A stretch of 64,000 bases of DNA from Sphaerolaimus hirsutus (lineage: Eukaryota > Nematoda > Chromadorea > Monhysterida > Sphaerolaimidae): positions 3,038,001-3,102,000 of the forward strand of contig OZ038458.1 in assembly GCA_964036195.1 (NCBI GenBank), given 5' to 3'. The notes beneath the pieces were generated by a model. It saw only the letters and a program-made list of their open reading frames with translations, ran no database searches and was not told the DNA's origin. Positions 27,896 to 52,297 of the stretch are shown here, piece after piece (the stretch's first letter is position 1; the number at the start of each line of letters is the position of its first letter). Made by a program: the position numbers and the translations under genes.

Positions 27896-30800
27896 ATGGC
27901 GCACGCGGGTGTCGATGCGGGGGAGATTTTGTCTTATGAAGTTAGTTTGTAGCGTTTTTGTCCAAAAGGTGTTTTTCTGAGCAAAAAGAATCCCTAATGA
28001 GCGCAGTGTGAGAATTAATCCAAAATTCTTCGTGAGTACCTGTGTAACCCCCCCCGCCCCTGAAAAATCCATAAAAATTATTTTAGCTCTGCAACTGTGC
28101 CACCATTTCCATGACAATGTTCTCTGACTGTTTTCCACCGTTACTGCGAATGCATTCATCTCTCTGGGATATACCTAGGTACTTTTCTTCAGTTCTTTCT
28201 TCTCTTCAATAATCATCGATTGATACCAGAGTTGTTTTAAGTACTGAACTTTTTTCAAAGTAAACGTAAAGTATTTTTATTTTACTTACAGCTGAGTACA
28301 GAAAACGTAAAGTGAAACGTTTGTACTGTTACATGTGTAAAACGTGAGTAAAATACTTCTTCCCCAGGAAAACGTAAAAGTCGGTGTTTTTCTCACAGAA
28401 CATATAAAACTGAGTATTTTCTCTCACAGAAAACGTAACAAACGTAACAGACTGTATTTTTTCAATTGTTACTCTGGAAAACATATATATGTGTTTTTTT
28501 CTTCCTGATAATAATTTATTGGTAAAATATCCAATGTTTGTCACTTTCTATATCCCCTTAAAATACGTTTTCAGTACTCGCGTACTTTCAAAAGGTAAGT
28601 GAGTACTGGTATTTAAACGTATTTACGCAGTACTCGAGTATACGTATTTATCGAGTAAACGTAAATACGTTTTGATAACTATGATTGATTGATACCTAAG
28701 CGTTTAGGGGCGGGTAGATGAGCTGTGGACATATGCAGTTAGCGTTAGGGTTCAAACGGGGACCAGTTTTTGAGCGCGTTTTTGAGTTGACTAGAATCGG
28801 TCATTTTCAGTTTCTTTTTTACTCCTCATACCTCAAAATCAAAATCAAAGCTTAAGAATAGTAAAAAAAATTAAAGCTGATGTATTGAAGAGATTTTCCC
28901 AAAAAAAGTTTTCAGAAATTTTGGTGGAAAACTAGTAGGTGTAGGTAGGGTTCAAACGGGATTGACTTTTCGGGATCGGGATTGGTTTTTTGAGATTTCG
29001 GGATTGGCCGGGATTGGGGTCACGGGATCGGGATTGGCATTTTTTCGGGATCGGGATTGGGTTATTGGGATAGAGCTTTTGGCCAATGTTCTGGCATCCA
29101 CAGTTGTTCATAAAGGTCTCAAAACACGGTTGGATGCCAGAAAAGTGGCATAAATGAACGCTGGGGTTTGCGTTCACATTTTTACATGCAAAAATGTCAT
29201 TTTTTAACTTTTGATCATTTCCACTAATTTTTCCGGGATCGGGATCCCGGACTTTGGAGTTTCTCGGGATCGGGATCGGGATTTGAAAATTTTCGGGATC
29301 GGGATCGTGACTGCTAAATCCCGGAATTTCCGGGATCGGGATAGGGATCCCGTTTGAACCCTAGGTGTTGGGCCAACAAAAACCTATCCATAATAAGTAG
29401 CCATATGAAATAACGCACGTTTCATCTCAGCCGGAGGCAAAACGGCCGCGTGAAAATGGCGTCGCGCCAACGACCAGCGGCAGTGCTGCAGCCGTCTCCG
29501 CAGAGGTAAAGGCCGCGAAAAAAAGCGAAAAAAATATAACGATTTTTTTGTTAGCGTGGGTAGGGTTGGCAAAATCTCAGGAAAAATTTAATGCAATTTT
29601 ACTAAAACAAATTCTGGTCACGAACTAAACTAAAAAAAAAATGGAAAATTGAAGAATCAAATAAAAATAACCTGGAAAATTGAAGAATAAAGAAATACAA
29701 TTTTTATACAACTGACTACAATTTTAGGAAAAAGAATTTTACTAAAACCAACCCTGAGCGTGGAGAAATGCGCGCCCGCGTTCAAAATTGTGCAGACTGC
29801 ATGCACAATGGGTATGTAAAACTGCATTTGAGGCGTCCAATTCTAAAAGTCGACAAGTCCAAAATATGAAAATTTCGAGTTAGGCCCGGAAACGTCATCT
29901 GGGGCTACTTCTGCACATTTTTCATCATTTTCCATAAATTTTTTGACCTCACATCCCCCTATGGCAAAGTGCCAAATTTGACATTTTTGGGGAAAAATGC
30001 AAAAAGTTTGGGCAAGAAGTCGACAAGTCCACTTAGTTTTGGGCTAAAAGGCGACAAGTCCATATGGACACCCCATTTTTCACATATACGTTGAGATAAG
30101 GGGCTGAAAATTTGACACTTTATTGTCAACATATGGACCTTTATGAAAACGATGAGAGAGCCAAATTGGACATGCACCACGGGCCTGGAATTGGATCGGA
30201 AACTTAAAATGCGATTTACTCAAAATCACATTTTGTGGACTTGTCGACTTTTAGAATTAGACGCCTCATTTGCATTCCTGAAGATTTTCCGTCTAGCCCG
30301 GGAATGGGGTGCTGCATCACTGCTGCGTCCCCGTTCGTTGAATCAGCCTTTGTCTTACAAACACGCATTTATGTATACCCAGTGGAGCGCATACTTTGCG
30401 CACAATTCTACCACAATTTCATGAAAAATGTCGTAATTCGTTATTCCATAGTAAAAACGAGACATGGGCCCACACACACTACTTTACCATAATGAAATTC
30501 TCGACCATTTCAGTAAATTGTTTGCACAAAACGATACGAAACGGTTTACCAAAATGGTCAAGCATTTCATAATGGTAAACTAGTGCGTGTGGGCACATTA
30601 CGTTAAAAAACTATAACTTTTGGTTCATTATTCAGATGGGTTATGGTAGGTTTGGTTTGGTAAGTGTGATGTCCGCCGAGTATACCTAAATCCGCAACAC
30701 AATCTTTTTCAATGGTGGCACTCTGCCAACTCAGGAACTTTTAGCCGCGCTCGAAGCCGAGGGCGGGGCCGAACCGCTCGACGAATTGGCAGTGCGAAAA

Positions 30801-30914
30801 TTGATAGGCACTTTTGAAAAGCGCGCAGTCAAAAATGCAGAGATGCGAGTCAAGTTTGCCGACGAGCCGGCCAAGTTTATGGAATCCGAAGTGGAATTGA
30901 ATACGGCTATACAG
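27896..30914 (+). CDS. CTNNBL1: CTNNBL1 N-terminal exons 1-3
   Basis: Exon 1 reads M-AHAGVDAGEILSYE, matching the MDVGELLSYQP start of the human protein and so fixing the initiator at 27896. Its donor is the weak GTTAGT. Exon 2 (29431-29505) reads PEAKRPRENGVAP, containing the KRPR basic motif that serves as a nuclear localisation signal in this family. Exon 3 (30735-30914) is 60 codons from ELLAALEAEGG through EPLDELAVRKLIGTFEKR to KFMESEVELNTAIQ. The acidic stretch of the vertebrate N-terminus is much shorter here. The 5' untranslated region and promoter were not recognised; upstream lies an E-family repeat with a nested MITE. Confidence 0.9.
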
Positions 30915-33900
30915 GTTGGATGTGGCATTTCTATGGAGTTCCGACAAAATGTCACGATTTCCGGTCCCGATCGGGACTAGGGTTCAAACGGGATTGACTT
31001 TTCGGGATCGGGATTGGGGTCACGGGATCGGGATTGGCATTTTTTCGGGATCGAGATTGGGGTCTTGGGATAGAGATTTTGGCCATTTTTCTGTCATTCA
31101 CAGTTGTTCATAAAGTTCTCAAAACACAGTTGGATGCCAGAAAAGTGGCATAAAATTGACGCTGGGGGTTTGCGTGCACATTTTTGCATGCAAAAACGTC
31201 ATTATTTCACTTTTTATAATTTCCACTAATTTTTCCGGGATCGGGATCCCGGACTTGGGAGTTTCTCGGGATCGGGATTTGAAAATTTTCGTGATCGGGA
31301 TCGGGATTGGTATTTTTGGATTTCGGGATCGGGAACGGGATTGGGGTTTCGGGATCGGGATCGTGACTGGTAAATCCCGGAATTTCACGGGATCCGGGAT
31401 CGGGATCCCGTTTGAACCCTAATCGGGACTTGATGGATAGTCTGTGCCCCGATGCGGACAAACAAACAACTTCCAGAATTCCGATCCCCGGCAACCAAAA
31501 ATCCCAAACTAACAGTCGGGCTTTTGTAGGAAGTAAAAATGACGGTGCTGCTAAAAATGTGACCTATAGTGCGCGCAGAACTTCCTGTGCGTATTGCACC
31601 GACGCATGTGTCACTCGTTCTCCGTGCACTCGCGCCCGTCTAAAGATCTTTAAACCGCGCGCTGAATTTTGCCCAGTTTTCCCAATACAAACTTGTAATT
31701 TTTAGAGGCCCATCACGCGCTTGAAAATGGGAATTGTGAGTGGAGATTACGCTCAGAGGGCTAAAATTATGTGCGTTCTCTGTTAAATGTAAGAAAATGT
31801 AGAAATTTAACTGTCATTGTGGAGCCCACACACAAAAAAAGGCGAGCCTGAGCGATTTTTGGGTTACCGCTCGCGGGCATTCACACGATAGTGGGCGGAG
31901 TCAACTTTGAGCGGGGATGCGCATCAAAATATGTGCGCGGACTGTATAAGCTGCAACGCTGCAATTAGCCTCATTTCCACCCCGCAACACTAGTATACTC
32001 CGCGGACCACATGCTATGCATTTTTTGAAGGAAACACTCCATCATGACGTCATCGTAAATTAAATAAACTTTGGTCAAAAAATAAAAAAACGTTTCAGGA
32101 TGAAAACATTCGTCGCTTGCACGCGACTCCGCCTTTTTTGAATTTTTTTTTGTGAAGTGCGTACATAAGTATCGTCCTGGTGTACTATCGACAAGTTAGG
32201 GCGCATACTTTGTGGTCCGCCGAGTATACCCATTCCGCAAGTGGAGAAGTGGCAAGGAAACTTGTGGGTGGCAACCAGGGTTGGCAAAATCTCAGAAAAT
32301 AATGAAAATAAAATTTAAAAAAAATGAAAAATTCAAGAATAAAATAAAATGTCAAATTTCAAAATAAAAATAAAAATTGTAGAAAAATTCGAATTTTTGT
32401 AAAATTGTATAAAAAATTCATATTTTTGTAAAAATTGTATAAAAATTAGTATTTTTTTGTAAAATTTTAGTCTCGTTCTACCTGTTTATTCGCGGAGCTG
32501 GGGCAGTCTCAAGCCCTGTAAAGTGTCAAATGTCATATGAAATGTCATGCAAAGTGCCAATTGTCATGACAAATGTTAAGTGAAGTGTCAATTGTCATGA
32601 CAAATATAAATTAAAGTGTCAATTTTAAAGCAAATTGTATCCAAGTCTTTTGTTTTATATCCAAATGTTGTGTTTTTGTATCCTAATCCTTTGTGAATAT
32701 TTGGATACAAAAACATGAGATTTGGATACCAAAACGTAAGATTTGGATACACAATTTACACTTTGCATGACATTTGACACTTTAATTGACATTTGACATG
32801 TCAATTGACTGTTTACTTTACATTTGTCATGACAATTGACACTTTGCTTGACCTTTTACAAATGCACCCAGCACACTCCAGTAGTCCTTCTACTGAAAAT
32901 GCAAACAAATGTTATCAATAATTGTAACTTTACATTTGCAGCTAGCTAACAATACCGACTGCATGTAACTTTTGCAAAGTAATGAAAAAATTTGTCACAC
33001 GTTTTTCATGTTTAGGTCTAATTATAACATTTTGCTGGCATCGCATGCAAGATTCTGATTTTTTGTAAACTTAATGTAAAAAGTTTCTAAAATGGTGTCA
33101 TTTTATTTCATTAATGACTTTTTGGAATAAAATAAAATAAAATAAAATGAAACAAGAATAAAATTAAAATTAAATACATTTTTATACAATTTGTATACAA
33201 ATAATTTTTATAAAACCAACCCTGGTGGCAACTCCATAAAATGAAAATATTTGCTACTTTAAAGTTTACCTGTCACTTGACTTAGCACTCACAACTTGAA
33301 TCAGCACTTAACACTTAACGCATCACTTCACCACGGGCAGGAGCTGCACGCGATCGCTGCCATGCCCGAGTGCTACGAGCTGCTGAACGAACTGGATGGC
33401 ACCAAACACCTGCTCCAGCTGCTCAACCACGCAAACACGGACATCCTCGCAGCCGTGCTCGCCTTATTGCAGGTTCGCGCATTACGGTACGGGTGTCCGG
33501 TAAATGTTACGGTACGGTAAATATTCGCTTTTGCGGTAAAATTTATGGTATAATACGGAAAATTTTGAAAATTGAGAAAAGCAGTACGGTACGGTAAATC
33601 TTGCATACTGTGATAAACGGTGCGGTAAACTTGTTCACTTTTACCGTACCGATATCCCGCCTACCCTTCTACAGGAGCTGACCGATATCGATGCCGATGA
33701 GGCGATTGAAAGTGACCAGGTGCTTGCCGTGGAGGGCGGCAGGAAATTGGCTGACGCACTGTGTGATGGACAGGTTTGGGGGGTCTTTGATTTTGGTTGT
33801 TGTTTTTGGTGAGCGTTTTTTAATGTGGCTAATAGGGATGGAAAAAAACGTGTTTTTTTCAACGACCCCTTTTTTAAATAAACCGGTTTTTTCAAAAGCG

Positions 33901-36900
33901 CCCAGATCTGGTCATGGGTCTACAGGTACATTAGACAACTGGCTACTTTGTGATGTTATATTTTTATAGGCAGAGAATGGCTGTAGAGCCATGGGATAGC
34001 ATTATAAGTGGTTATTTATGTCAAAGATATCTGTTTTATGTCGACTTCTTACGTATATTGCCTTTTGTTGAATGTTCATGAGTTCAAGTGAAGTTGGGCA
34101 TGGAATGTGCTTGAATTAGGTTATTAGAGCAGGCAAATACATTGGCAGTGATGTATCACACTGTACAAGTATATGGAGTTGAGGCACATTGACTGGACAT
34201 TATATACTACCCTCACATATCACGGCTTATTATGGCACAATAGCATGAACAAATGGAAGCTTTTACACTAAAAATGCCTCAAAACCAATGCAAACAAGCA
34301 CCAATGGTAATGTGTATGTGAAATTGCGCAATATACCTAGTGCTGAAGTACAAAAAAAATTTTGCCAGCGCTTTTTTTTTTTAAAGCGCTGGGGCCCTTG
34401 CGCTTTTTTTAAAAAAAGCAGAGGTTTTTAAAAAAAACGCTTGAAAAAAGCGCTGGCCATCCCTACTAAGCACTAGGTATTTTGCAATTTTTTTGGCGCG
34501 AAGCGCGCAATTGATGTGAAATTGCAAAAAGTTTTGGCTGACGTTTTAAAAAAACGGTTTCGATGCTTGCGTTTTTTTATTTAAAAAAACTTTTATAAAC
34601 CTTTGAAAAAAACGCCGGCCATCCCTAGTGGCTTATGCACAGTTCACTTTTTGGATTTCGCTTTGTTTCTGTGGCGACAAGTGGCGCTTTTATCACAATC
34701 ATTACAAAATCACACTGATTCCCTTAGAATCATCAAACAATTTTGAAAAACAAAAAAAAAATTCCTAAAAAATCTCAATCCCACCCCGATTTCGTCACAT
34801 TGCAGATCGTGCCCCTTCTGGTGCGTTGCATGGAGCGCCTGGACGAATCGCAACGTGACGAATCGGATGCTGTCCATCAGGCGCTGGCCGTCATTGAGAA
34901 CTTGGCCGAATTGAGAGCAGGTGCCGGTTCCGCAAGTGGACAAGTTAAGAGTTAAAAGTTAAGAGTTGAGTAAAATGACAAATGGCGAGTTAAGAGTAAA
35001 GTTAAAGTTTAAGAGAAAAGTTAAAATTTAAGAGTTGAGTTAAAAGTTGAGTGAAATGTTAAGAGTGGAGTTAAAGGTTAAAAGTTGAGTTAAGAGTTAA
35101 GAGTTGAGTTAAAAGTTGAGTTAAGAGTTGAGTTGAGAGTTAAGAGACAAGTGGAAAATGATGGTAAAAAAATAAAAATCTGAAATTGGTATTGATACGG
35201 CTGTTCGCTGGCATGCTGCCAATGTTGTATGCACGACATTTGAAAATAACGTATCCAAAAAAATTATCGCTAAAAAAAAAAATCGCGGAACGTTGTTTCA
35301 AAATGGCCATGCGGGGACAAAATATGATTGAAGATCAGCGTATCGCGCTTCTGCAACGAATGACCCATTTGTCTTTTATATCAACTTTTAACTCACATTT
35401 TAACCTTTAACTCAACTCTTAACATTTAACTCAACTTTTAACCTTTAACTCAACTCTTAACTTTTAACTCAACTTTTGACTCAACTTTTAACCTTTAACT
35501 CAACTCTTAACTTTTAACTCAACTTTTGACTCAACTTTTAACCTTTAACTCAACTCTTAACTTTTAACTCAACTTTTGTCTCAACTTCAACCTTTAACTC
35601 AACTTTTAACTCTTAACTTGTCTACTTGCGGAACTGGCCCCAGATTTGGCACATACGGCTGCTGAAAATGGATTGTTGCAGTGGTTACTGAAGAGGGTTA
35701 GACACAGGTGCGTGTGTTTATTTTTTGAATAGTGTGGATGAGGTCTCACCCAGGGGGCACTCCCAGACCTCGTAAAATGTCTAATGTCATGCAAAGTGTC
35801 AAAAGTCATGTATAAGTAGTAAGTACCTGCAAAATGCCGAACGAAGTTTGACACTTTGAATGGCATTTGACATTTTACAGGGAACCAGGTTTGAGCGATG
35901 ACACTAAACGCACTGGGTGACATCGGTGTCAACTGGTTTCGATGGAAATTCAGATTTTAGTTGATGGGATGTTCACAGCGATTCAGCAACGTTATGACAT
36001 GTAGTGCCAACAGCGAAACAACGTGTTGACAAGGCATTGTCAGCACGTTGTTTCGCTGTTGTCTCGATGTGTCTGTCATAATGTTGTTTCCATGCTGGGT
36101 TTGTGCGCGTCACAATAAAAGCATGCATTTACATGCTGTGGGAAAATGTTGTCCCAACGCTGAAAATTTTGTCAGAACGTTGTTTTCAAGTTGGTGGAAA
36201 TCGCTGTGGTTCGAATGGACATACCGCAATATTGAAAAAATATTCGGTCGTGTGCATTTCAAAGTGGTCCTGCGATCCGTCAACTAAAATCTGAATTGAC
36301 ATGGAAACTTGTTGACACACGCCATCAACTGGGTGTGCGTAGTTGCGCTGTTGAATATCGATAGCGAACATTTTGAAGTAAATTATTGATATTGTTAACT
36401 GATGTCGTTTCAATTGATGTTGTCAAATTTGCGCCAATAAAAATCACAGAAGAGTGGTCTGAACAAGTTTCTCTACATTTGCAGAACGTTCGACGGGAAC
36501 AAGCTGTACGCCAGTGAAATTTTGGGCGTGCTGCTGCAACAATCGGAGCAGGTGCCACTCCCAGACCTTGTAAAAGACCCTGCAAAGTGTAAACGACCGT
36601 ATAAAATGTCACGTGTCATGTAAAAAACCCAGTAGAGTGTCATGTGTCATGTAAAAGACCCTGTCAAGTGTCTAATGTCATGTAAAAGACCCTGTAAAGT
36701 GGCATGTGTATACAAATCTGATCTTTTTGTATCCCAATCTTACTTTTGGGTATAAGGGTTGGATACAAAAACAAATGGTTTGGATAAGATACAATAATAT
36801 TTGGATACACATGACACTTTAAATACGTTATCTTTTACATGACTTTTGACACTTTACAGCGTCTTCTAACACTTTACCAGGGTTTTTTACAAGGTCTGGG

Positions 36901-39900
36901 AGTGCCCCCCCAGTTGCGCAAGGCGCTCGGCGCTGAGGGAATTGACATTTTGTTACAAGTCAGTTTTCACTTCTTGCAAAGGAGCGGGCATATTTGGGGG
37001 CGAAAGCAAAGCAAGCAAGCAAATTTAGTTCTAGTGAATGGCCATGGCAGTAAGCAAAGGGCGGCGAAGACTGAGGCTCGCTGTGCATGTTTACCCGCTG
37101 TGCATGTAGACTCTAATTTTCACACAAAATCGCTCATTTTCATACCATTTTATACATTTTCACCTTCAAAATCACTAGTTCATGTGTTTTATTGTCTATT
37201 TTCAGCTATTTCTTGTAGTATGTGTGCTTATATACCCATTTTTAGTCATTTTTCACCTACTTTTAGCGATTTATCTACCTTTTTTCCTCATTATGAAAAA
37301 GCCTATACAATGAACCCCCACGAACCCCCAAACCCCCCAAATTTTTTTTCTAGCTATCTATCCCTCCAGAGGAGCGATTAGCCATCTATCCAACCCCCTG
37401 GAGGGTCATAGTCTTGAATACTCCTGACATGCACAGCGGGTAAACATGCACAGAGGCACAGGCCCGGCGGCGAATAACCCCTGGGCAAGAAACACCCCTG
37501 GGCAACTGCGCTCAGTGGACAAGAGCGTGCGCGCAGCGGGCCAATCACCCCTGGGCAACCGCGGCACACGCAGTGGGGGTGCACTGATACGCACATCTGC
37601 CCGATACGCACATTTGCCCGTTTTTTCACTTGACACTTTTTCAAGTGATTTTCAGTTATGAGTGAAGTGAAAAAAGTTCACTAATGTCATTGCGCAACTT
37701 TTTTTCACTTTACTCATATCTGAAAATCACTTGAAAAAGTGTCAAGTGAAAAAAACGGGCAAATGTGCGTATCGGGCAGATGTGCGTATCGGGCAGATGT
37801 GCGTATCAGGCCTGCCCCCACGCAGTGACCGCACGGCGCCGGCGCCAATCGTGCAGCGCAGGTCTACATTTTGCGAGTGCTTCAATTAGCATCCAAAAAA
37901 TGGTTTTTCAGAAAATATTATTCAATATTATTAAACCCCGAACGCAAAGTTCTGTCGCCTCGATGTTTTCTAAAACTTTCAACTGCGCGTAGCGATCAGA
38001 TCGTGCTAGGGTGCTATAGGTTTCAAAAGAAAGCCCATAAATTTATCTACAAACGTGTCAGTTTTCAGCCCCTTAGCTTTATCGTGTCCCAATTGAGAGG
38101 GATCCAAATAAAATTTGTGCACACTAAAGTCTTGTTGCTAGGAACAAAATTTACAGAAGTTTAATTCCTGGGAATTGTTGTTCATGGTCATAGCAGTTCA
38201 GCCACACATGGCACCTTAAGGAAAAACAGTTTTTGAAAAGAGTATACATACACGAAACATTTATTGTAGGGGATAAAGATAAATCTACCCATCATGTGGC
38301 ATCATGGGTTTGAATTTACAAAACAACCAAAACACCAAAAAATCGTACTTTTTCCATCGGAGTAAAGACTGACAAAATTGATGGCGGCCGTGTCGTGAAT
38401 TCAAACCCATGGTGCCACATGAGGGTGACATATATTTATCCCCTACAACTAATTTTTGGTCTATGTATACTCTACAAAAAGTGCCTTTCATTGATGGTGG
38501 CATATGTGGCTGAACCGCTATGACCATGAACAACAATTCCCAGGAAGTAAACTTTTGTAAAATTTGTTCCTGGCGACAAGACTTGCGTCTGCACAAATTT
38601 TTATTTGGATCGCTCTCAATTGGGATAGGGGGTAGGGGGTTGAAAATGGATACGTTTGTAGAGTTGTGTATGGGCTTTTCTTTTGATACCTATATCAGCC
38701 CCCTAGCAGGATCTGATCGGTACGCGCAGTTGAAAGTTTTAGAAAACACCGAGGCGACAGAACTTTGCGTCCGGGGTTTAAATTAATTAAATATTATCAG
38801 AAAATATCTCAAATAAATAAAATACTGAAATATTTAATAAAGTATTAAAAAAATCAAAAATATCTCTGAAAAAACCCAGTGGAAATGAAAATAAAATCAA
38901 AGATTTTTTTTACGTTTTTCTCAAAAGATATAAAATGTTATCTCCCCAATAAAACCCAGAGTAAATATAAATTAACATGAAAAAATTTTATGTTAAAAAT
39001 ATTGATCTTCCAATATTTTTGGAACGCTAGTTGTGATAGCGCAGGTGGCCACAAAAGCAGCGGAAGTGGGGCGCGAGCGGGGCAGTCGCCAATGCATTGG
39101 CGCCGGCTTGGCGTGTGCCCTTGTTGCCCAGGGGTGTTTGCGGCCCACTGAGCGCAGTTGTCCAGGGGTGTTTGTTGACTACAGCTGCTGTTTGTTGTCA
39201 CACGGCTTCTGCATTAAACAAATAAATATTGAAAATTTCTGCATTTTTTAATTGAATTCGCAACTACATACGGCACAACTTTCTTCAATATTAAGTCCCT
39301 GGCTCTCTACAAACGGCGAAATCCCGAGGGTGCGGACGAGAGGGAATTGATGGAAAATTTGTTCGATTGCTTGTGTGCAGCGCTGATGTTAGTCAGGCGA
39401 AGTTTTCTTTTTTTAAGCGACGTTCGCACTGTCGCCTGTGCCGACAAAATTTCTTTGGGCTTTCTACTTATGTCATGAAAATTGGATATTTGTTGTGTGG
39501 GACACCTAGATCTCAATCACCTTTTTGCCCGAGACGAACATAAATTTTCATCTATGACGTAATCATACACAATATGATGTTACACATTATGATGTTACAC
39601 AATATGATGTTACACATGTTATGATCATACACAATATGATGACATTTTTTCTTGTTCTCGGCGGCTGTCAGTTCCATTTGTTCTATTCGTTAACGTGGCT
39701 ACCTAGAACAAATGGAACCGACAACCTGTGATGACAAGAAAAAGTGTTATCGTATTGTGTATGATGGGGGTGCACTGATACGCACATCTGCCCGTTACGC
39801 ACATATTCCCGTTTTTGTACTTGACACTTTTTTAAGTGATTTTCAGATATGAGTGAAGTGAAAAACGCTGCGCAATGACATTAGTGAACTTTTTTCACTT

Positions 39901-42900
39901 CACTCATATCTGAAACTCACTTGAAAATGTGTCAAGTGACAAACAGTGAAAAATGGCTATTTTTCACTGTTTTTTTTCACTTGACACATTTTCAAGTGAT
40001 TTTCAGATATGAATGTGCGTATCAGGCCTACCCAGGCCCGATTTTCACTTGACACTTGACGGGCAGATGTGCGTATCAGGCCTACTCCTGTATTATTACA
40101 TCTTAGATGAAAATTTATGTTTGTCTTAGGCAAAAAGGATGATTGAGATCTAGGTGTCCGGCACAACAAATATTCAGTTTTCATGACATAAAGAAAGTAG
40201 AAAGCCCAAAGAAATTTTGTCGTCACAGGCGACAGTGTAAACGCAGCGTTAAAAAAATTTAATCTGAAAATTAAGTGACTCGAATAAATATTATACTACA
40301 AAAATCTAATTTTTCGAAGATATTTCTTTTCAGTTTCAAAGATAATCGACAAAAGTTTCTGGATGGCGAAGGCTTGCAGTTGATGAATTTGATGCTGCGA
40401 GAGAAAAAAGAATCGAGAATGAGTGCGCTTAAGGTAAGGATTTTCAATGTTGTTATTTTCAATGTGTGTTTTTCTGTAAATATTTTTCCGACTGGACGCC
40501 AAAAAAGAATGCTACCATATTTAGATAAAAGTCTGTGATGTTTAACACTATTTATGCACCAAATTCACTCATGATGGGAGCAGTGCAATGTGACGAAGAA
40601 CGAATTTTTCAAATGGCGTGCTGCCTGTGTATAGGGTGGACAAAATTTACCGTACCGGCCTTCAACTACCGATAAATGTAAAAGTTTACCGGCAATTTAC
40701 CGTACCTTTTACCGAGGGTCCACGAATGGCCGCAGGTAATCGACCACGCCACTTCTGGTCCCGAAGGCCGGGCCAATTGCGACAAATTCGTTGAGATTCT
40801 CGGCTTGCGAACCATTTTCCCGCTTTTCATGAAAACGCCCGGCCGTTCGCATAGGAAACACGCGGGAAGATCAGGTGCCACTCCCAGACCCTGTAAAATG
40901 CCCTGTGAAATGTCAAATGTCATGCAAAGTGTCTAAGGTTACGTAAAATGCCCTGGAAGATGTCAGGTGTCATCTAAAATGCCCTGGAAAATGTCTAATG
41001 TCATGCAAAGCGTCAAAAGTCGTGTAAAATGTCAAACGGAAGTTAACCTGTAAAACGGAAGTGTGCCATTTTTAAAGGGTATTTGACAGGGTCTGGGAGT
41101 GCCCCCAGCTGAAGAACATGAAGAACACGTTTCCGCTATTTTGGCGTCGATGTTGCGTTCTTGCGCGGCACCCGCCAGACACAGGATTATCGACAAGTTT
41201 CAGGAACAGGTACGCCGTTTTGGCTAGGGCCCATTACGCATCAAAGCCCATTCCGCATGTAGACCCATTATAGACACATTATGCCTGCAGGGGTAAGAAA
41301 GGGGGTGGGTAACACCACCCCAAACGGCCCAGCTATCTATCTATCCCTGGTGCAATTTTTTTTGGCTACATTCCCTTGAACACCCCCACACCCGCAAATT
41401 GCCCAGCTATCTGGAGCGCTTTTGAGCAATTTTACCCTAATTTTCACCAAAACTCCCTCACTTTCCTACTTCTTATAAATTTTCACCTTCAAAATAACTA
41501 GGTCATGTGTTTTATTACATATTTTCAACATGCCATTAAATGTGTTCCGGGTCAACATGCGGGATGGGTTTAGATGCGGAATAGTGCACTGCCGATTTAG
41601 TTTGCCCAAATTTTGTCGGGCAGCCCAATTTATTGTGATTGAGATATTTTTTAGATGTTTTACCAGCCATCCCGAGTTTATATCTTTTGTCATATTTAAT
41701 TGTCGTCATGATTTCTGGATTTGTATTATTTTAGATTGTAAATTTGACAGAAATTAGCCAATGATGAAGCTGGAGACAATCACAAATCCTGTCAAATGTC
41801 ATGAAAAAACAACAATTTATTTTGTCTGAAATTGTACGCCGCTCGGTGTGGTATATTTTTTTATCTTGAATTGGCGAGATAGTTTCTGGGTTTGTAAATA
41901 TTCACTTTTGTTAATTTTAAATTTGACAGAAATCAGCCAACGATGTGCGATGGAGCGAGTCCGTACCCAATATCATTGACATTTTAAAGTTCAAGTGCCC
42001 TGAAAAATCTACTTTGTGTTTTGCCGAGCATCATACATTTTGCGACAACTTTTTTTCTAACACTTTTCACTTTACATGACATTTTGCAGCGCGCGGGACT
42101 TGTCCCTGGCCTGCCAAAAACTGCAATGACCTGGCAATAATGATACCGAATAGGCCTTTAAATATCTCTCAGCCCTTATCCGAAAGAATTCCCACAATAA
42201 AATAACTCCCCCAAACCCAGGACCTAGCCAAAATCGACCGCCTAGTAGAATTATTCCTCAAATATCGCCATGTGGTGCGCCGTTACGATTTATCCGTCGA
42301 ACAGCACCGACAGCAACACGGACAAGAACTGGATACCGGAGAAGATGAACAATATGTTGCCCGACTTGACGCCGGATTGTTTACGCTGCAACTTTTGGCG
42401 CTTATTGTGGCCGATGTGTTTGTGAATGCGGGGAAACAGGTTCGGGGGGGGGGGGATTTTTTAGTGGAAGTGTTGGTTTCTGTTTGTTTTTTCTTGGTTT
42501 TGGGAAGGTTTTCGGGCTCGCTTCTCCGGGAAGCGCAATATTTGGCAGCATGCACACATATCCGTTACACATTTTTGCGATTGTTTTCGCTGATTTTTGG
42601 CACTGCACCATTCCGCATGTAAACCCATCCCGCATGTTGACCCGGAACGCAATTAATTATACCCGGGATGCTGAAAATGGGCTATAAAACACCTGACCTA
42701 GTGATTTTGAAGGTGAAAAGCTATAAGAAGTATGAAAATAAGCGTGTTTGGGTGAAAATTAGGGTAAAATTGCTCAAAAGCGCTCCAGATAGCTAGATAG
42801 CTAGGAATTTGCGGGGGGGGGGTGTTCAGGGGAAAGTAGTCAAAAAAATTACGCCAGGGATCTAAGGATAGCTGGGCGGTTTGGGGTGGGATTACCTGCC

Positions 42901-44458
42901 CCTCTTTCTTAACCCTGCGGGTATAATGTGCCTATAATGGGTCTAGATGCGTGCTGGGTTTAGATGCGGAATAGGCTTGACCCGATTTTTCTTCGGGAGT
43001 ATAGTCAACGCGAAACACGGTGAAAACTGCATTGAAGAATATAAAATTCACAAATCATTCAGTTAACCAATCACATTCGATTGACCTCTTATCAAGTTCA
43101 ATTCGCCATCGATCCCATTCAATTGACACCCACATCAGGGGTTGAGTAGATTTGGACCCCGGCGGGGGTTTATATAGATAGTAAATCGCTCCTCCGGAGG
43201 GATAGATGGCTGAAAAAAATTTTGGGGGGTGGCGGGTGTTCAATATATAGGCTTTTCCAAGGTATAGACGGAAACAAGGGGGAAAATAGGTGAAAAACAG
43301 CTAGAAATAGGTCTATAAGTACATATAGTAAAAAAAATCGCTAAAAATAGGCAATAAGAAACGTGAATTAGAATTTTGAAGGTGAAAAACTATAAAACGG
43401 TACGAAAATTAGCGATTTTGAGCGAAAATTGGGCCAAAATTTCTTTAAAACCAGACGATTTGGGGGATATATCGCCAAAAAATTTGCCTCCGGGATAGAT
43501 AGATAGCTGGCGGATTTGGGGGGGGGGGGGGGTAAGCCCCCCTACTAAACCCCTAACCCACATTGATCACACTGATGCTATGGTCTGAGCGCAGACCCGC
43601 GACAAGGTGACCAAGCTGCTGCAAATGAAGGGCTGCTCGCTGGCCAATGTGGCCTCCATCTTGGCCGAATACATGCGCAACCTGGTGCCACTCCCACACC
43701 CTGTAAACCACAGTGATGCAATGTAATGCACAGTGTCTAAAGTCATGCAAAATGCCCTGCAAAATGACAAACCTTTGCCATTTTGCAAGGCATTTTCCAT
43801 AACTTTAGACACTTTGCATGACATTTGACATTTTACAGGGCATTTTCCATTACTTTAGGCGCCTTTCACACTGTGAAACTGTGACGACAAAAAATGCAAT
43901 TTTTCAGCCATTTTTGTTGGATGCATATGAAATATTTTACATGTGTGAAGCCTCAATCGATCTAGTTGATCAGCCCCACTGCCTAAGACAAACATCAAAT
44001 TATATACATTGTGTGTTCATGCACACTAGATCACACTTTTTTTTTGTTGTCGGAGGCTGTCGCTGTACTTGTTCAAGGGGCGTTGTCGGCGGCCTCGTTA
44101 AAGGGGCTGGTGACAACAAATCAGCGACTACCTCCGACAACAAGAAAAAAGTGTGATCTAGTGTGCATGAACACGCGATATATATAATTTTATGTTTGTC
44201 TTAGGCAGTGGGGCTGATCAAGTCATGATCGATTGAGGCTTCACACATGAAAAATATTTCATATGTATCGCACAACAATGGCTGAAAAATCGCATTTTTG
44301 TCGTCATAGTTTCACAGTGTGAACGCTGTCTTAGACACTGTGCATGACAGTTGACATTTTACAGGGCACTTTACAGGGTCTGGGACTGCCCCCAGGGGGA
44401 GGAAGCCAAGCCGGAGAGAAACAGGGTAGACGCCTTGGTGGCTAAGTTGCCCAGTTGA
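27896..44458 (+). CDS. CTNNBL1: CTNNBL1 (beta-catenin-like 1), complete split gene
   Basis: CTNNBL1 is a nuclear armadillo-repeat protein that associates with the Prp19/CDC5L spliceosome complex (family knowledge). Sixteen exons: 27896-27940, 29431-29505, 30735-30914, 33341-33472, 33675-33773, 34806-34920, 35644-35707, 36485-36551, 36914-36958, 39296-39387, 40334-40433, 40736-40874, 41109-41209, 42221-42439, 43595-43684, 44396-44458. Phases all close, giving 541 residues against 563 in human. Recognisable blocks in order are DAGEILSYE, EAKRPREN, TFEKRAVKN with KFMESEVELN, ERLDESQRDE, NGLLQWLLKR, GEGLQLMNLMLREKK, ILGLRTIFPLFMK, EEHEEHVSAILAS and RLDAGLFTLQ. No frameshift or stop is seen. Introns 6, 8, 12 and 15 coincide exactly with inverted-repeat elements. 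It runs in the same direction as TAK1, about 2.7 kb downstream. Confidence 0.95.
28946..29363. mobile_element. hAT-like MITE, GGGATC family, CTNNBL1 intron 1
   Basis: TAGGGTTCAAACGGGATTGA ... CCCGTTTGAACCCTA; flanks GGTGTAGG/GGTGTTGG (7 of 8). Confidence 0.88.
29561..29756. mobile_element. hAT-like AT-rich MITE, CTNNBL1 intron 2
   Basis: TAGGGTTGGCAAAATCTCAG ... ACCAACCCTG; flanks AGCGTGGG/AGCGTGGA. Same family as 32276-33224 and 46276-46490. Confidence 0.75.
29831..30268. repeat. GTCGACAAGTCCAC inverted repeat, CTNNBL1 intron 2
   Basis: GGCGTCCAATTCTAAAAGTC and its inverse TTTTAGAATTAGACGCC bound the element. Copies at 17511-17880 and 62930-63545 share GTCGACAAGTCCAC and CATTAAGTTCCATATGTTGA-type sequence. 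Confidence 0.65.
30978..31421. mobile_element. hAT-like MITE, GGGATC family, CTNNBL1 intron 3
   Basis: TAGGGTTCAAACGGGATTGA ... CCCGTTTGAACCCTA with a perfect ATCGGGAC duplication, 63 bases after the exon 3 donor. Confidence 0.92.
31993..32229. repeat. TATACTC-family element, CTNNBL1 intron 3
   Basis: GTATACTCCGCGGACCACAT and its inverse TGGTCCGCCGAGTATAC, with CATCATGACGTCATCG. This is the best-preserved copy of the family. Confidence 0.75.
32276..33224. mobile_element. hAT-like AT-rich MITE with nested element, CTNNBL1 intron 3
   Basis: CAGGGTTGGCAAAATCTCAG ... ACCAACCCTG with a perfect GTGGCAAC duplication. A CTCCCAGACC-family element sits inside. Confidence 0.88.
32498..32871. mobile_element. 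CTCCCAGACC-family element nested in a hAT MITE
   Basis: CTGGGGCAGTCTCAAGCCCTGT followed by AAAGTGTCAAATGTCAT arms and a central run of TTTGGATAC/GTATCCAAAT units. The right end is eroded. It lies in CTNNBL1 intron 3 within the element at 32276-33224. Confidence 0.6.
33341..41209 (+). CDS. CTNNBL1: CTNNBL1 armadillo-repeat core, exons 4-13
   Basis: Exons 4-13 encode the helical armadillo core. Exon 4 is exactly 44 codons (ELHAIAAMPECYELLNELDG...), the same length as the human segment. Exon 5 gives ELTDIDADEAIE, exon 6 ERLDESQRDESDAVHQALAVIENLAEL and exon 7 NGLLQWLLKR. Exon 10 ends at a second GTTAGT donor (39387) and joins exon 11 (40334) to read ALIFKDNRQKFLDGEGLQ, which aligns residue for residue with the human protein. 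Exon 12 gives GPEGRANCDKFVEILGLRTI and exon 13 EEHEEHVSAILASMLRS. Exons 8|9 and 12|13 flank transposon-like introns. The protein is 1 residue shorter and 2 residues longer than human at those two joints. Confidence 0.93.
33833..34627. mobile_element. hAT-like MITE, TAGGGATGG type, CTNNBL1 intron 5
   Basis: TAGGGATGGAAAAAAACG ... CCGGCCATCCCTA; flanks GTGGCTAA/GTGGCTTA (7 of 8). The core repeats GCACTAGGTATTTTGCAA. Confidence 0.85.
34921..35643 (+). mobile_element. Introner-like TIR element = CTNNBL1 intron 6 (AAGTGG family)
   Basis: The intron starts GTGCCGGTTCCGCAAGTGG directly after exon 6 and ends CTACTTGCGGAACTGGCCCCAG directly before exon 7; the two ends are inverted copies over about 30 bases, on through the GTTAAGAG motif. 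The 723-bp interior is mostly inverted arrays of a TTAAGAGTTGAG-like unit plus a 220-bp unique core. The left end gives the donor and the right end the acceptor. The protein has the same length as human across the joint. Confidence 0.88.
35751..35888. mobile_element. CTCCCAGACC-family copy inside CTNNBL1 intron 7
   Basis: CAGGGGGCACTCCCAGACC at the left, AAATGTCTAATGTCATGCAA arm, and a returning CATTTTACAGGGAACCAGG end. It sits wholly inside a normal intron, so it is not using its own splice sites. Confidence 0.65.
36552..36913 (+). mobile_element. Introner-like TIR element = CTNNBL1 intron 8 (CTCCCAGACC family)
   Basis: The 362-bp intron starts GTGCCACTCCCAGACCTTGT after exon 8 (SEQ) and ends AAGGTCTGGGAGTGCC then CCCCCAG before exon 9 (LRKALG). 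The interior is a large hairpin of AAAGTGTCATGTGTCATG-type units with a TTTGGATAC motif near the middle. Confidence 0.88.
37580..37827. repeat. Palindrome with GATACGCACATCTGCCCG ends, CTNNBL1 intron 9
   Basis: Arms GATACGCACATTTGCCCG and TTTTTCACTTGACACTTTTT return in inverse order. The right arm carries three GTGCGTATCGGGCAGAT-type repeats. A second copy is at 39767-40090. Confidence 0.75.
37912..38806. repeat. 900-bp palindrome, CTNNBL1 intron 9
   Basis: Inverse matches include AACGCAAAGTTCTGTCGCCT near the left and AGGCGACAGAACTTTGCGT near the right, and GGGAATTGTTGTTCATGGTC with its inverse. Low divergence between arms suggests it is young. Flanks are AT-rich. Confidence 0.75.
39412..40252. 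repeat. GTTTACACTG-type inverted repeat, CTNNBL1 intron 10
   Basis: GTCGCCTGTGCCGACAAAAT at the left and ATTTTGTCGTCACAGGCGAC at the right, enclosing ACACAATATGATGTTACA repeats and the second GATACGCACATCTGCCCG palindrome. Confidence 0.65.
40875..41108 (+). mobile_element. Introner-like TIR element = CTNNBL1 intron 12 (CTCCCAGACC family)
   Basis: At 234 bp this is the shortest and cleanest example: GTGCCACTCCCAGACCCTGT at the donor and ACAGGGTCTGGGAGTGCC plus CCCAG at the acceptor. There is essentially nothing in the intron except the element, so splice sites and termini coincide to the base. Confidence 0.9.
42221..44458 (+). CDS. CTNNBL1: CTNNBL1 C-terminal exons 14-16
   Basis: Exon 14 (73 codons) reads from DLAKIDRLVELFLKY to VARLDAGLFTLQLLAL and VFVNAGKQ, matching the conserved RRLDAGLFVLQ block. 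Exon 15 (TRDKVTKLLQMKGCS...EYMRNL) matches the penultimate helices. Exon 16 (44396-44458) is 20 codons plus TGA (GEEAKPERNRVDALVAKLPS), equivalent to the human PEFRENEQKRILGLLENF tail and about three residues shorter. The exon 15/16 intron is a TIR element that itself carries a 480-bp palindrome. No confident poly(A) signal was picked; a MITE nest starts about 35 bases after the stop. Confidence 0.92.
43685..44395 (+). mobile_element. Introner-like TIR element = CTNNBL1 intron 15, with nested palindrome
   Basis: It starts GTGCCACTCCCACACCCTG after exon 15 and ends ACAGGGTCTGGGACTGCC plus CCCAG before exon 16. A separate 480-bp palindrome (about 43855-44335) has inserted in its centre. The host element's short CATGACATTTGACATTTTAC arms flank it on both sides. 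Confidence 0.88.
43855..44335. repeat. 480-bp palindrome nested in the exon 15/16 intron
   Basis: CACACTGTGAAACTGTGACG and its inverse bound arms with GGCTTCACACATG-type and CTAGATCACACTTTTTT sequence. Confidence 0.75.
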
Positions 44459-45664: not shown

Positions 45665-45853
45665 CAGGTGGCAGTCCCAAGCCCTGTAAAGTGTAAAGTA
45701 AAGTGTCAATCAAAACAAAAAAGAAAAGATTTTATTATTGAACTTTGCATGACAATTGACACTTTACTTTACTTTTGTCATGACAATTGACACACACTTG
45801 ACTTTACATTTGACACTTTACTTTACACTTTACAGGGCTTGGGACTGCCCCCG
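45665..45853. mobile_element. CTCCCAGACC-family element inserted in a TATACTC repeat
   Basis: CAGGTGGCAGTCCCAAGCCC at the left and GGGCTTGGGACTGCC at the right, with TGTAAAGTG arms. It splits the left terminus of a TATACTC-family element (TATACTCC before, GGGACCGCATGCC after), so the empty site can be inferred from other copies. Confidence 0.75.
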
Positions 45854-52173: not shown

Positions 52174-52297
52174 GCCCAGTAAAATGTCAAATGTCAAGCA
52201 GTGTCTTAAGCCATGGAAAATGTCAAATGGCCGGTCAAAAATAAATAAAAATGTGACATTTTAAAGGGCAGTTTACAGGGTCTGGGAGTGGCACCCC
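52174..52297. mobile_element. CTCCCAGACC-family relic, intergenic
   Basis: AAAATGTCAAATGTCAAGCA arm, then ACAGGGTCTGGGAGTGGC and ACCCC at the right. The left terminus has eroded. Confidence 0.5.

Follow-up and report, generated by a model that had tools for sequence, protein, structure and literature searches.

The window, i.e. the whole stretch of 64,000 nucleotides analysed here (C14:3038001-3102000), is part of a 348.5-Mb assembly of 762 contigs, which we used for all genome-wide searches. Its plus strand encodes CTNNBL1 (Table 1). The gene model comprises 14 exons, the first of them partial, and 13 introns. All 13 introns have GT-AG ends, and with the donor of intron 8 set to the GTTAGT at 39388, a single open frame runs to the stop. 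The 509-residue product aligns with human CTNNBL1 over residues 15-497 (E 5.4e-149). An earlier note on this DNA had drawn the exon boundaries from protein homology and phase. Only the last junction (MRNL/GEEA) has weaker homology support, because the human match ends 12 residues short of the stop. Rfam and ARAGORN searches of the whole window gave no matches. By eye, we found two copies of another inverted-repeat sequence with ends like GATACGCACATCTGCCC, at ~37575-37812 in intron 7 and at ~39770-40085 in intron 8.

Table 1. CTNNBL1 and copies of the two element families in the window
Feature	Position	Strand	Basis
CTNNBL1 gene, first exon partial	30711..44458	+	gene model; human match, E 5.4e-149
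Intron 4, second-family introner, GTGCCGGTTCCGCAAG ... CTTGCGGAACTGGCCC then CAG; target copies CAG/CAG	34921..35643	+	
Truncated antisense family-1 copy within intron 5; left end unrecognisable, end coordinate approximate	35754..35890	-	
Intron 6, family-1 introner; preceded by CAG, terminal CAG, 2 extra C before the final CAG	36552..36913	+	
Intron 10, family-1 introner; target copies CAG/CAG	40875..41108	+	
Intron 13, family-1 introner, 711 nt; target copies CTG/CAG (exon side/intron side)	43685..44395	+	
Family-1-like copy 3' of CTNNBL1, away from its splice junctions; flanks CAG, CGG	45668..45851	+	
Family-1 left end, exact; within 900 bases no corresponding right end was listed	52279..52294	-	

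Four of the CTNNBL1 introns are distinguished by their ends. Scored for inverted repeats over 30 positions, the ends of introns 4, 6, 10 and 13 reach 27, 27, 26 and 21, respectively, vs 9-13 for the remaining nine. The earlier note had described three introns, which it numbered 8, 12 and 15, as copies of one element family with inverted terminal repeats. These introns are confirmed, but they are numbers 6, 10 and 13 of our partial model. They belong to one family, hereafter family 1, as GTGCCACTCCCASACC occurs exactly at 36552, 40875 and 43685 of the plus strand. A fourth exact occurrence lies on the minus strand (52279-52294), and with up to three mismatches the window holds 11 matches vs 0.45 expected from shuffles. 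The set was nevertheless incomplete, since intron 4 is a copy of a second family of like design. The ends are not alike to the base either, given the extra C residues of intron 6 and the unequal target copies of intron 13. The notion that the splice sites lie in the termini holds for the donor and the C-run, but the acceptor AG is located in a 3-bp target duplication, outside the element. Lastly, the family does occur away from splice junctions, both downstream of the gene and in intron 5.

The check proposed with the earlier note, a search of the genome with the termini, revealed 7,568 family-1 left ends at up to one mismatch (3831+3737), vs 10 for the control (7+3). Exact left ends follow CAG in 2183 cases and CTG in 1900, and exact right ends precede CAG in 1679 cases and CTG in 1121; the controls gave 0 throughout. 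We then examined individual loci. Among 30 selected by an exact left end, the right end was recognisable in 20, and 13 of these 20 have an identical CAG or CTG on both sides, although CWG was not required. Among 30 selected by a right end followed by CTG, a left end was present in 26 and preceded by CTG in 23. Exact ends were also paired blind to genes in the first 11.8 Mb of contig C1, where they were complete. The 48 pairs comprise 24 CAG/CAG, 16 CTG/CTG, 7 CTG/CAG and 1 CAG/CTG, so that 40 of 48 are identical on both sides, with end patterns that required CWG. The target duplication is thus CWG, and the element itself runs from GTGC to CCCC. The intron closes with the second target copy, which supplies its final three bases. 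Whatever the target, excising the element with one target copy yields the pre-insertion sequence.

Two element pairs at C1:8158110-8189453 have the same flanks in opposite orientation, which suggests a large inverted duplication. Arrays of TTAGGC, the nematode telomere repeat, are present near the ends of contigs C1 and C2 and at internal positions, among 100 of the 17,412 places found; they may mark old fusions or assembly joins. Together with domain matches such as CHGN and Srx (see below), the arrays point tentatively to a nematode or a relative. A search with the SL1 sequence gave no match at up to two mismatches.

From 41 copies, each 115-200 nt in length, we derived a palindromic family-1 consensus of 188 nt. 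It folds into a hairpin in which everything is paired except four terminal bases per side and a 4-nt loop. The palindrome is broken only at its ends, GTGC vs CCCC, and a T replacing G at position 2 of one terminus creates the GT. Family 1 is short, non-coding and highly repeated, with inverted repeats and a target duplication, as MITEs are. As in introners, the similarity extends up to the splice boundaries, in the four CTNNBL1 introns and in the junction peptides of other genes. Family 2 is a distinct repeat of the same design, with a CWG duplication, a left end GTGCC and a right end that reads GGGCC inward. At up to two mismatches, its left ends number 4,123 genome-wide (2044+2079; control 1). 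Twelve copies of 492-805 nt were examined, of which 4 are CTG/CTG, 4 CAG/CAG, 2 CTG/CAG, 1 CAG/CTG and 1 of another type.

As to transposon class, family 1 behaves like a NuwaI MITE and is a candidate member of that group. According to the part of PMC4482050 consulted, elements of the NuwaI group, in the PHIS (PIF/Harbinger-like) superfamily, generate CWG duplications and have repeats that usually begin with GGG. The 3-bp CWG duplication is common to both, and the family-1 right terminus begins with GGGG when read inward (47/47 copies, as for the left GTGC, with these bases fixed by the search patterns). Unlike NuwaI as described there, family 1 has a GTGC left terminus and consists of a short, intron-making hairpin, and we found no transposase with these ends. 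DDE_Tnp_4 has 163 matches genome-wide. An autonomous partner was sought at four of these loci, from two families, in which only the right ends could be placed; none was found, and their right ends read GGGGCC, unlike that of the introner. Two other candidates were dropped. Matches that were ~190 bp too long had hinted at a transposase gene carrying a family-1 copy, but this failed at the locus concerned (L102). The CACT core had suggested a CACTA transposon, but the duplicated bases are found four positions further outward, and we abandoned this reading.

The DDE_Tnp_4 transposase family numbers well over 100 copies with nearly identical scores, two of which (L102 and L105) are 99.07% identical over 4105 bases. 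The family thus appears to be a recent burst. In another locus (L103, minus strand, ~3872 down to 3690), the 5' coding part of the DDE_Tnp_4 gene harbours a variant introner-like copy, CTG followed by GTGGCAATCC...GATTGCCC then CAG. The related gene of L102 is without such a copy at the corresponding place.

To relate the copies to genes, we joined the 99-base flanks of each side without the element and scored their codons by log-odds trained on 1,521 codons. The training genes were CCT genes, and no sense copy with intact ends was found in the four CCT regions examined. One CTG/CTG pair was lost, and 47 of the 48 exact pairs were scored. We obtained 26 sense-coding copies (10 CAG/CAG, 10 CTG/CTG and 6 CTG/CAG), 3 antisense ones, all CAG/CAG and with margins of 1 to 6, and 18 that are coding on neither strand. 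Among the 15 exact CTG/CTG copies scored, 10 are sense, 0 antisense and 5 neither. In 24 of the 26 sense copies, the flanks on either side of the element share one frame; the exceptions, L047 and L048, are both CTG/CTG. One antisense call (L097) has an RsmB/F-type methyltransferase match on the sense strand, beyond the junction.

A wider set of 95 copies was made by adding all other oriented copies, some with imperfect ends and many picked for a CTG right end. It contains 44 sense, 9 antisense and 42 neither, or 37 vs 5 at margins above 5. Its CTG/CTG copies are 16 sense vs 4 antisense (p 0.012), and two of these 4 have a clear margin (L040 and L046). Random pairing of the flanks of the 95 copies gave a mean of 31.5 sense calls with 60% frame agreement, a high null because either flank may be coding alone. 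The observed 44 is nonetheless higher than any of 200 shuffles, which peaked at 40, and the frames match in 40 of the 44 (91%). The score is a blunt tool: CTNNBL1 intron 4, a proven intron, scores below zero, so some coding copies must be missed. It called none of the 12 family-2 copies coding. Open-reading-frame length failed to distinguish coding from non-coding flanks.

These data support the earlier note's main proposal of intron gain driven by a transposon. The copies run to thousands, have inverted repeats and lie between 3-bp CWG duplications, and 26 of the 47 exact ones have sense-coding sequence up to both ends. They also bear on the idea that the element entered pre-existing introns secondarily. 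Non-coding copies do exist, namely the 18 exact copies on neither strand and the truncated copy in CTNNBL1 intron 5. Nevertheless, in CTNNBL1 introns 6, 10 and 13 and in the named conserved genes described below, the exon abuts both ends of the element bar one target copy (plus two C in intron 6), and no older splice site remains outside the element. Secondary insertion is thus hard to hold for the sense-coding copies, because no intron sequence lies outside the element, and we regard it as highly improbable.

Removal of the element from DNA is another alternative, as it too would go with inverted repeats and 3-bp direct repeats and would restore the sequence exactly. Internal eliminated sequences of ciliates are excised at the DNA level, and precise somatic excision of a transposon would leave the same picture; precise excision of mPing is reported (PMC4561436). 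However, excision of DNA is blind to strand, and the coding copies are 26 sense vs 3 antisense. Furthermore, in CAG copies GT and AG occupy the places that splicing requires, and the acceptor drifts toward AG, as described below. DNA excision is therefore scarcely credible. As neither DNA excision nor plain breakage distinguishes the strands, the sense bias argues for removal at the RNA level, and the sense-coding copies are probably spliced.

Protein homology across the junctions gave firmer evidence than the codon score. Peptides read through the joined flanks were compared with Pfam, in sense for 43 of the 47 copies (L033, L073, L074 and L090 being left out, the last of them compared in antisense) and in antisense for 20 of the 47, comprising all 15 CTG/CTG and five CAG/CAG. 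At E<=0.01, matches were obtained for 11 of the 43 sense peptides and for none of the 20 antisense ones (Fisher p 0.009). The 11 include two zinc-finger matches under the family cut-off (L078 and L079) and one beyond the junction (L097). CTG/CTG junctions fall within the matched domains of BCKDHA, an SLC23-type permease, OSCP1, an Srx receptor and Rcd1/CNOT9; a CHGN domain is also among the junction-peptide matches, as is Srx. In the wider set, CTG-type junctions fall within DDX47, which has both a CTG/CTG and a CCG/CTG copy, and within an amino-acid transporter, and Pfam gave no match for two other peptides of that set (L044 and L028). The names BCKDHA, DDX47 and CNOT9 come from matches to solved structures, and SLC23 is our label for a Xan_ur_permease match. 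The joined peptides align with these structures without gaps at the CTG junction for BCKDHA (E 1.3e-18), DDX47 (E 4.8e-40) and CNOT9 (E 1.3e-39, over 80 of 80 residues). CNOT9 has three exon matches genome-wide, all at one locus; profile positions 49-125 and 122-260 are spanned by the two matches next to the element.

At CTG copies, the sole removal that starts with GT and restores the mRNA ends in TG, and GT-TG would thus be the exact junction. If the 17 sense TG-type copies were retained, 16 would bring in an in-frame stop and the remaining one, CNOT9, would shift the frame. A TG acceptor violates the AG rule. The ordinary introns that we examined, 13 in CTNNBL1 and 8 in one CCT gene (by eye), are all GT-AG. 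GTGCCA is also a weak donor relative to the usual consensus, which we counted against the intron reading. In the part of PMC2374985 consulted, human TG 3' ends occur only as alternatives to a nearby AG. Sense CTG/CTG copies might accordingly be unremoved, as broken alleles, pseudogenes or assembly errors. However, broken copies would have no reason to prefer the sense strand, as the CTG/CTG copies do in both sets; the codons flanking the sense CTG/CTG copies are intact; and CNOT9 and OSCP1 are each represented by a single locus in the genome, with the CTG/CTG copy inside. We consider this explanation improbable.

CTG/CTG copies could also be spliced at a canonical AG nearby, either that of the inner ACAG or an exonic AG downstream. 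The inner TTTTACAG resembles an acceptor. All 15 exact CTG/CTG copies retain its ACAG intact, as do 23 of the 31 CAG-ended ones (the single CAG/CTG copy being outside this count). In 10 of the 17 sense TG-type copies, CNOT9 among them, the first AG downstream would keep the reading frame. However, if the inner AG were used with the outer GT, 19 nt would stay in the mRNA and the frame would be lost. In the other 7 of the 17, which comprise BCKDHA, both DDX47 junctions and others, the first downstream AG would not preserve the frame, and in CNOT9 its use would remove VKTDE, which is identical in human. In-frame AGs are in any case often expected, from codons that end in AG. Splicing at a nearby AG is thus unlikely.

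The GT-TG reading is favoured further by the state of the two target copies. Genome-wide, CAG accounts for 53.5% of left, exon-side copies and 60.0% of right, intron-side copies (chi-square 28.2, p 1.1e-7), with the proviso that the left and right end patterns permit slightly different bases and thus sample slightly different copies. Among the exact pairs, CTG/CAG outnumbers CAG/CTG by 7 to 1, and among sense-coding copies of the wider set by 8 to 0; CTNNBL1 intron 13 is itself of the CTG/CAG kind. Taken at face value, these figures mean that AG comes to replace TG at the acceptor. Selection may be a cause of this excess of CAG, but is probably not the sole one, because the excess is also seen outside coding copies, in the 'neither' copies of the wider set (4 vs 2) and in the 12 copies of family 2 (2 vs 1).

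Altogether, we propose that a non-autonomous DNA transposon, a palindromic MITE, would land at CWG and duplicate it. Its GTGC terminus would supply the GT donor, the other terminus would end in CCCC, and the second target copy would provide the last three bases. If the element left the RNA with one target copy, the mRNA would be exact, and a sense insertion in an exon would be an intron from the outset. A CAG target would give a GT-AG intron and a CTG target a GT-TG one, with removal in the latter case being an inference. We assign a probability of about 0.8 to this reading, i.e. that sense insertion of the palindromic MITE in an exon makes a ready-made intron, with GT-AG or GT-TG ends according to the target.

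How TG ends might be used is suggested by the hairpin. Folded in the RNA, it would join both ends of the element and hide GTAAAA and TTTTACAG, which lie further in. An early AG-recognition step may rely on the inner ACAG, whose last base is 19 nt before the TG; the inner AG would perhaps serve for entry of the spliceosome and the outer TG for joining, with the ends held by the hairpin. For human TG 3' ends, which have an AG within 28 nt, it has been proposed that the AG is needed early and the TG can be chosen late (PMC2374985, in the part consulted). A later T-to-A change in the intron-side target copy would turn TG into AG. We lean toward the view, with less assurance than for the origin of the introns, that CTG targets planted hundreds of TG-ending introns, that these are removed with the help of the hairpin and the inner AG, and that they later change one by one from TG to AG, with the exon-side copy keeping the original base. 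Extrapolating the sense-coding share of exact CTG/CTG copies (10 of 15) to the 1121 exact CTG right ends would give several hundred TG-type introns, a rough figure that rests on one third of one contig.

This system bears on the old questions of how introns originate and of how a transposon acquires splice sites that are adequate for survival in exons. As the duplication keeps the original base beside the intron, each of thousands of natural replicates records how its acceptor has since changed, and the CAG targets provide an internal control. Should splicing remove the CTG copies, introns can be born without an AG end, and annotation restricted to GT-AG will overlook a large share of family-1 introns (10 of the 26 sense-coding copies).

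Introners, near-identical introns that form families and carry inverted repeats and target duplications, are already known (Gozashti et al. 2022, PMC9860276), and among animals two groups only are reported in the part of that survey consulted. An introner with target-made TG acceptors, let alone on such a scale, was not met in the literature searched, which included the consulted parts of PMC9169325, PMC13326754 and PMC12730881. PMC9860276 describes introners with rare GC and GA donors, with TG acceptors unmentioned in the text consulted. The Chrysochromulina type in that survey likewise has its 5' site within the element and its 3' site from a 4-bp duplication. Here, in contrast with the introners described there, the target is CWG, so that half of the targets give TG and the exon-side copy preserves the original base. 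The human U2 TG 3' sites (Szafranski et al. 2007, PMC2374985), as far as that account was consulted, likewise combine a GT donor, a TG end and a nearby AG, located 19 nt upstream in our case. Nevertheless, in the 36 human introns TG is only an alternative to AG, whereas here many introns would use it as their regular site. Lastly, the introner elements of Amoebophrya (PMC7789003, consulted in part) similarly harbour inverted and direct repeats, form stem-loops and have non-canonical ends. Their ends vary widely and U1 was undetected, whereas the elements described here have a fixed GT and CWG, in a genome whose ordinary introns, where examined, are GT-AG.
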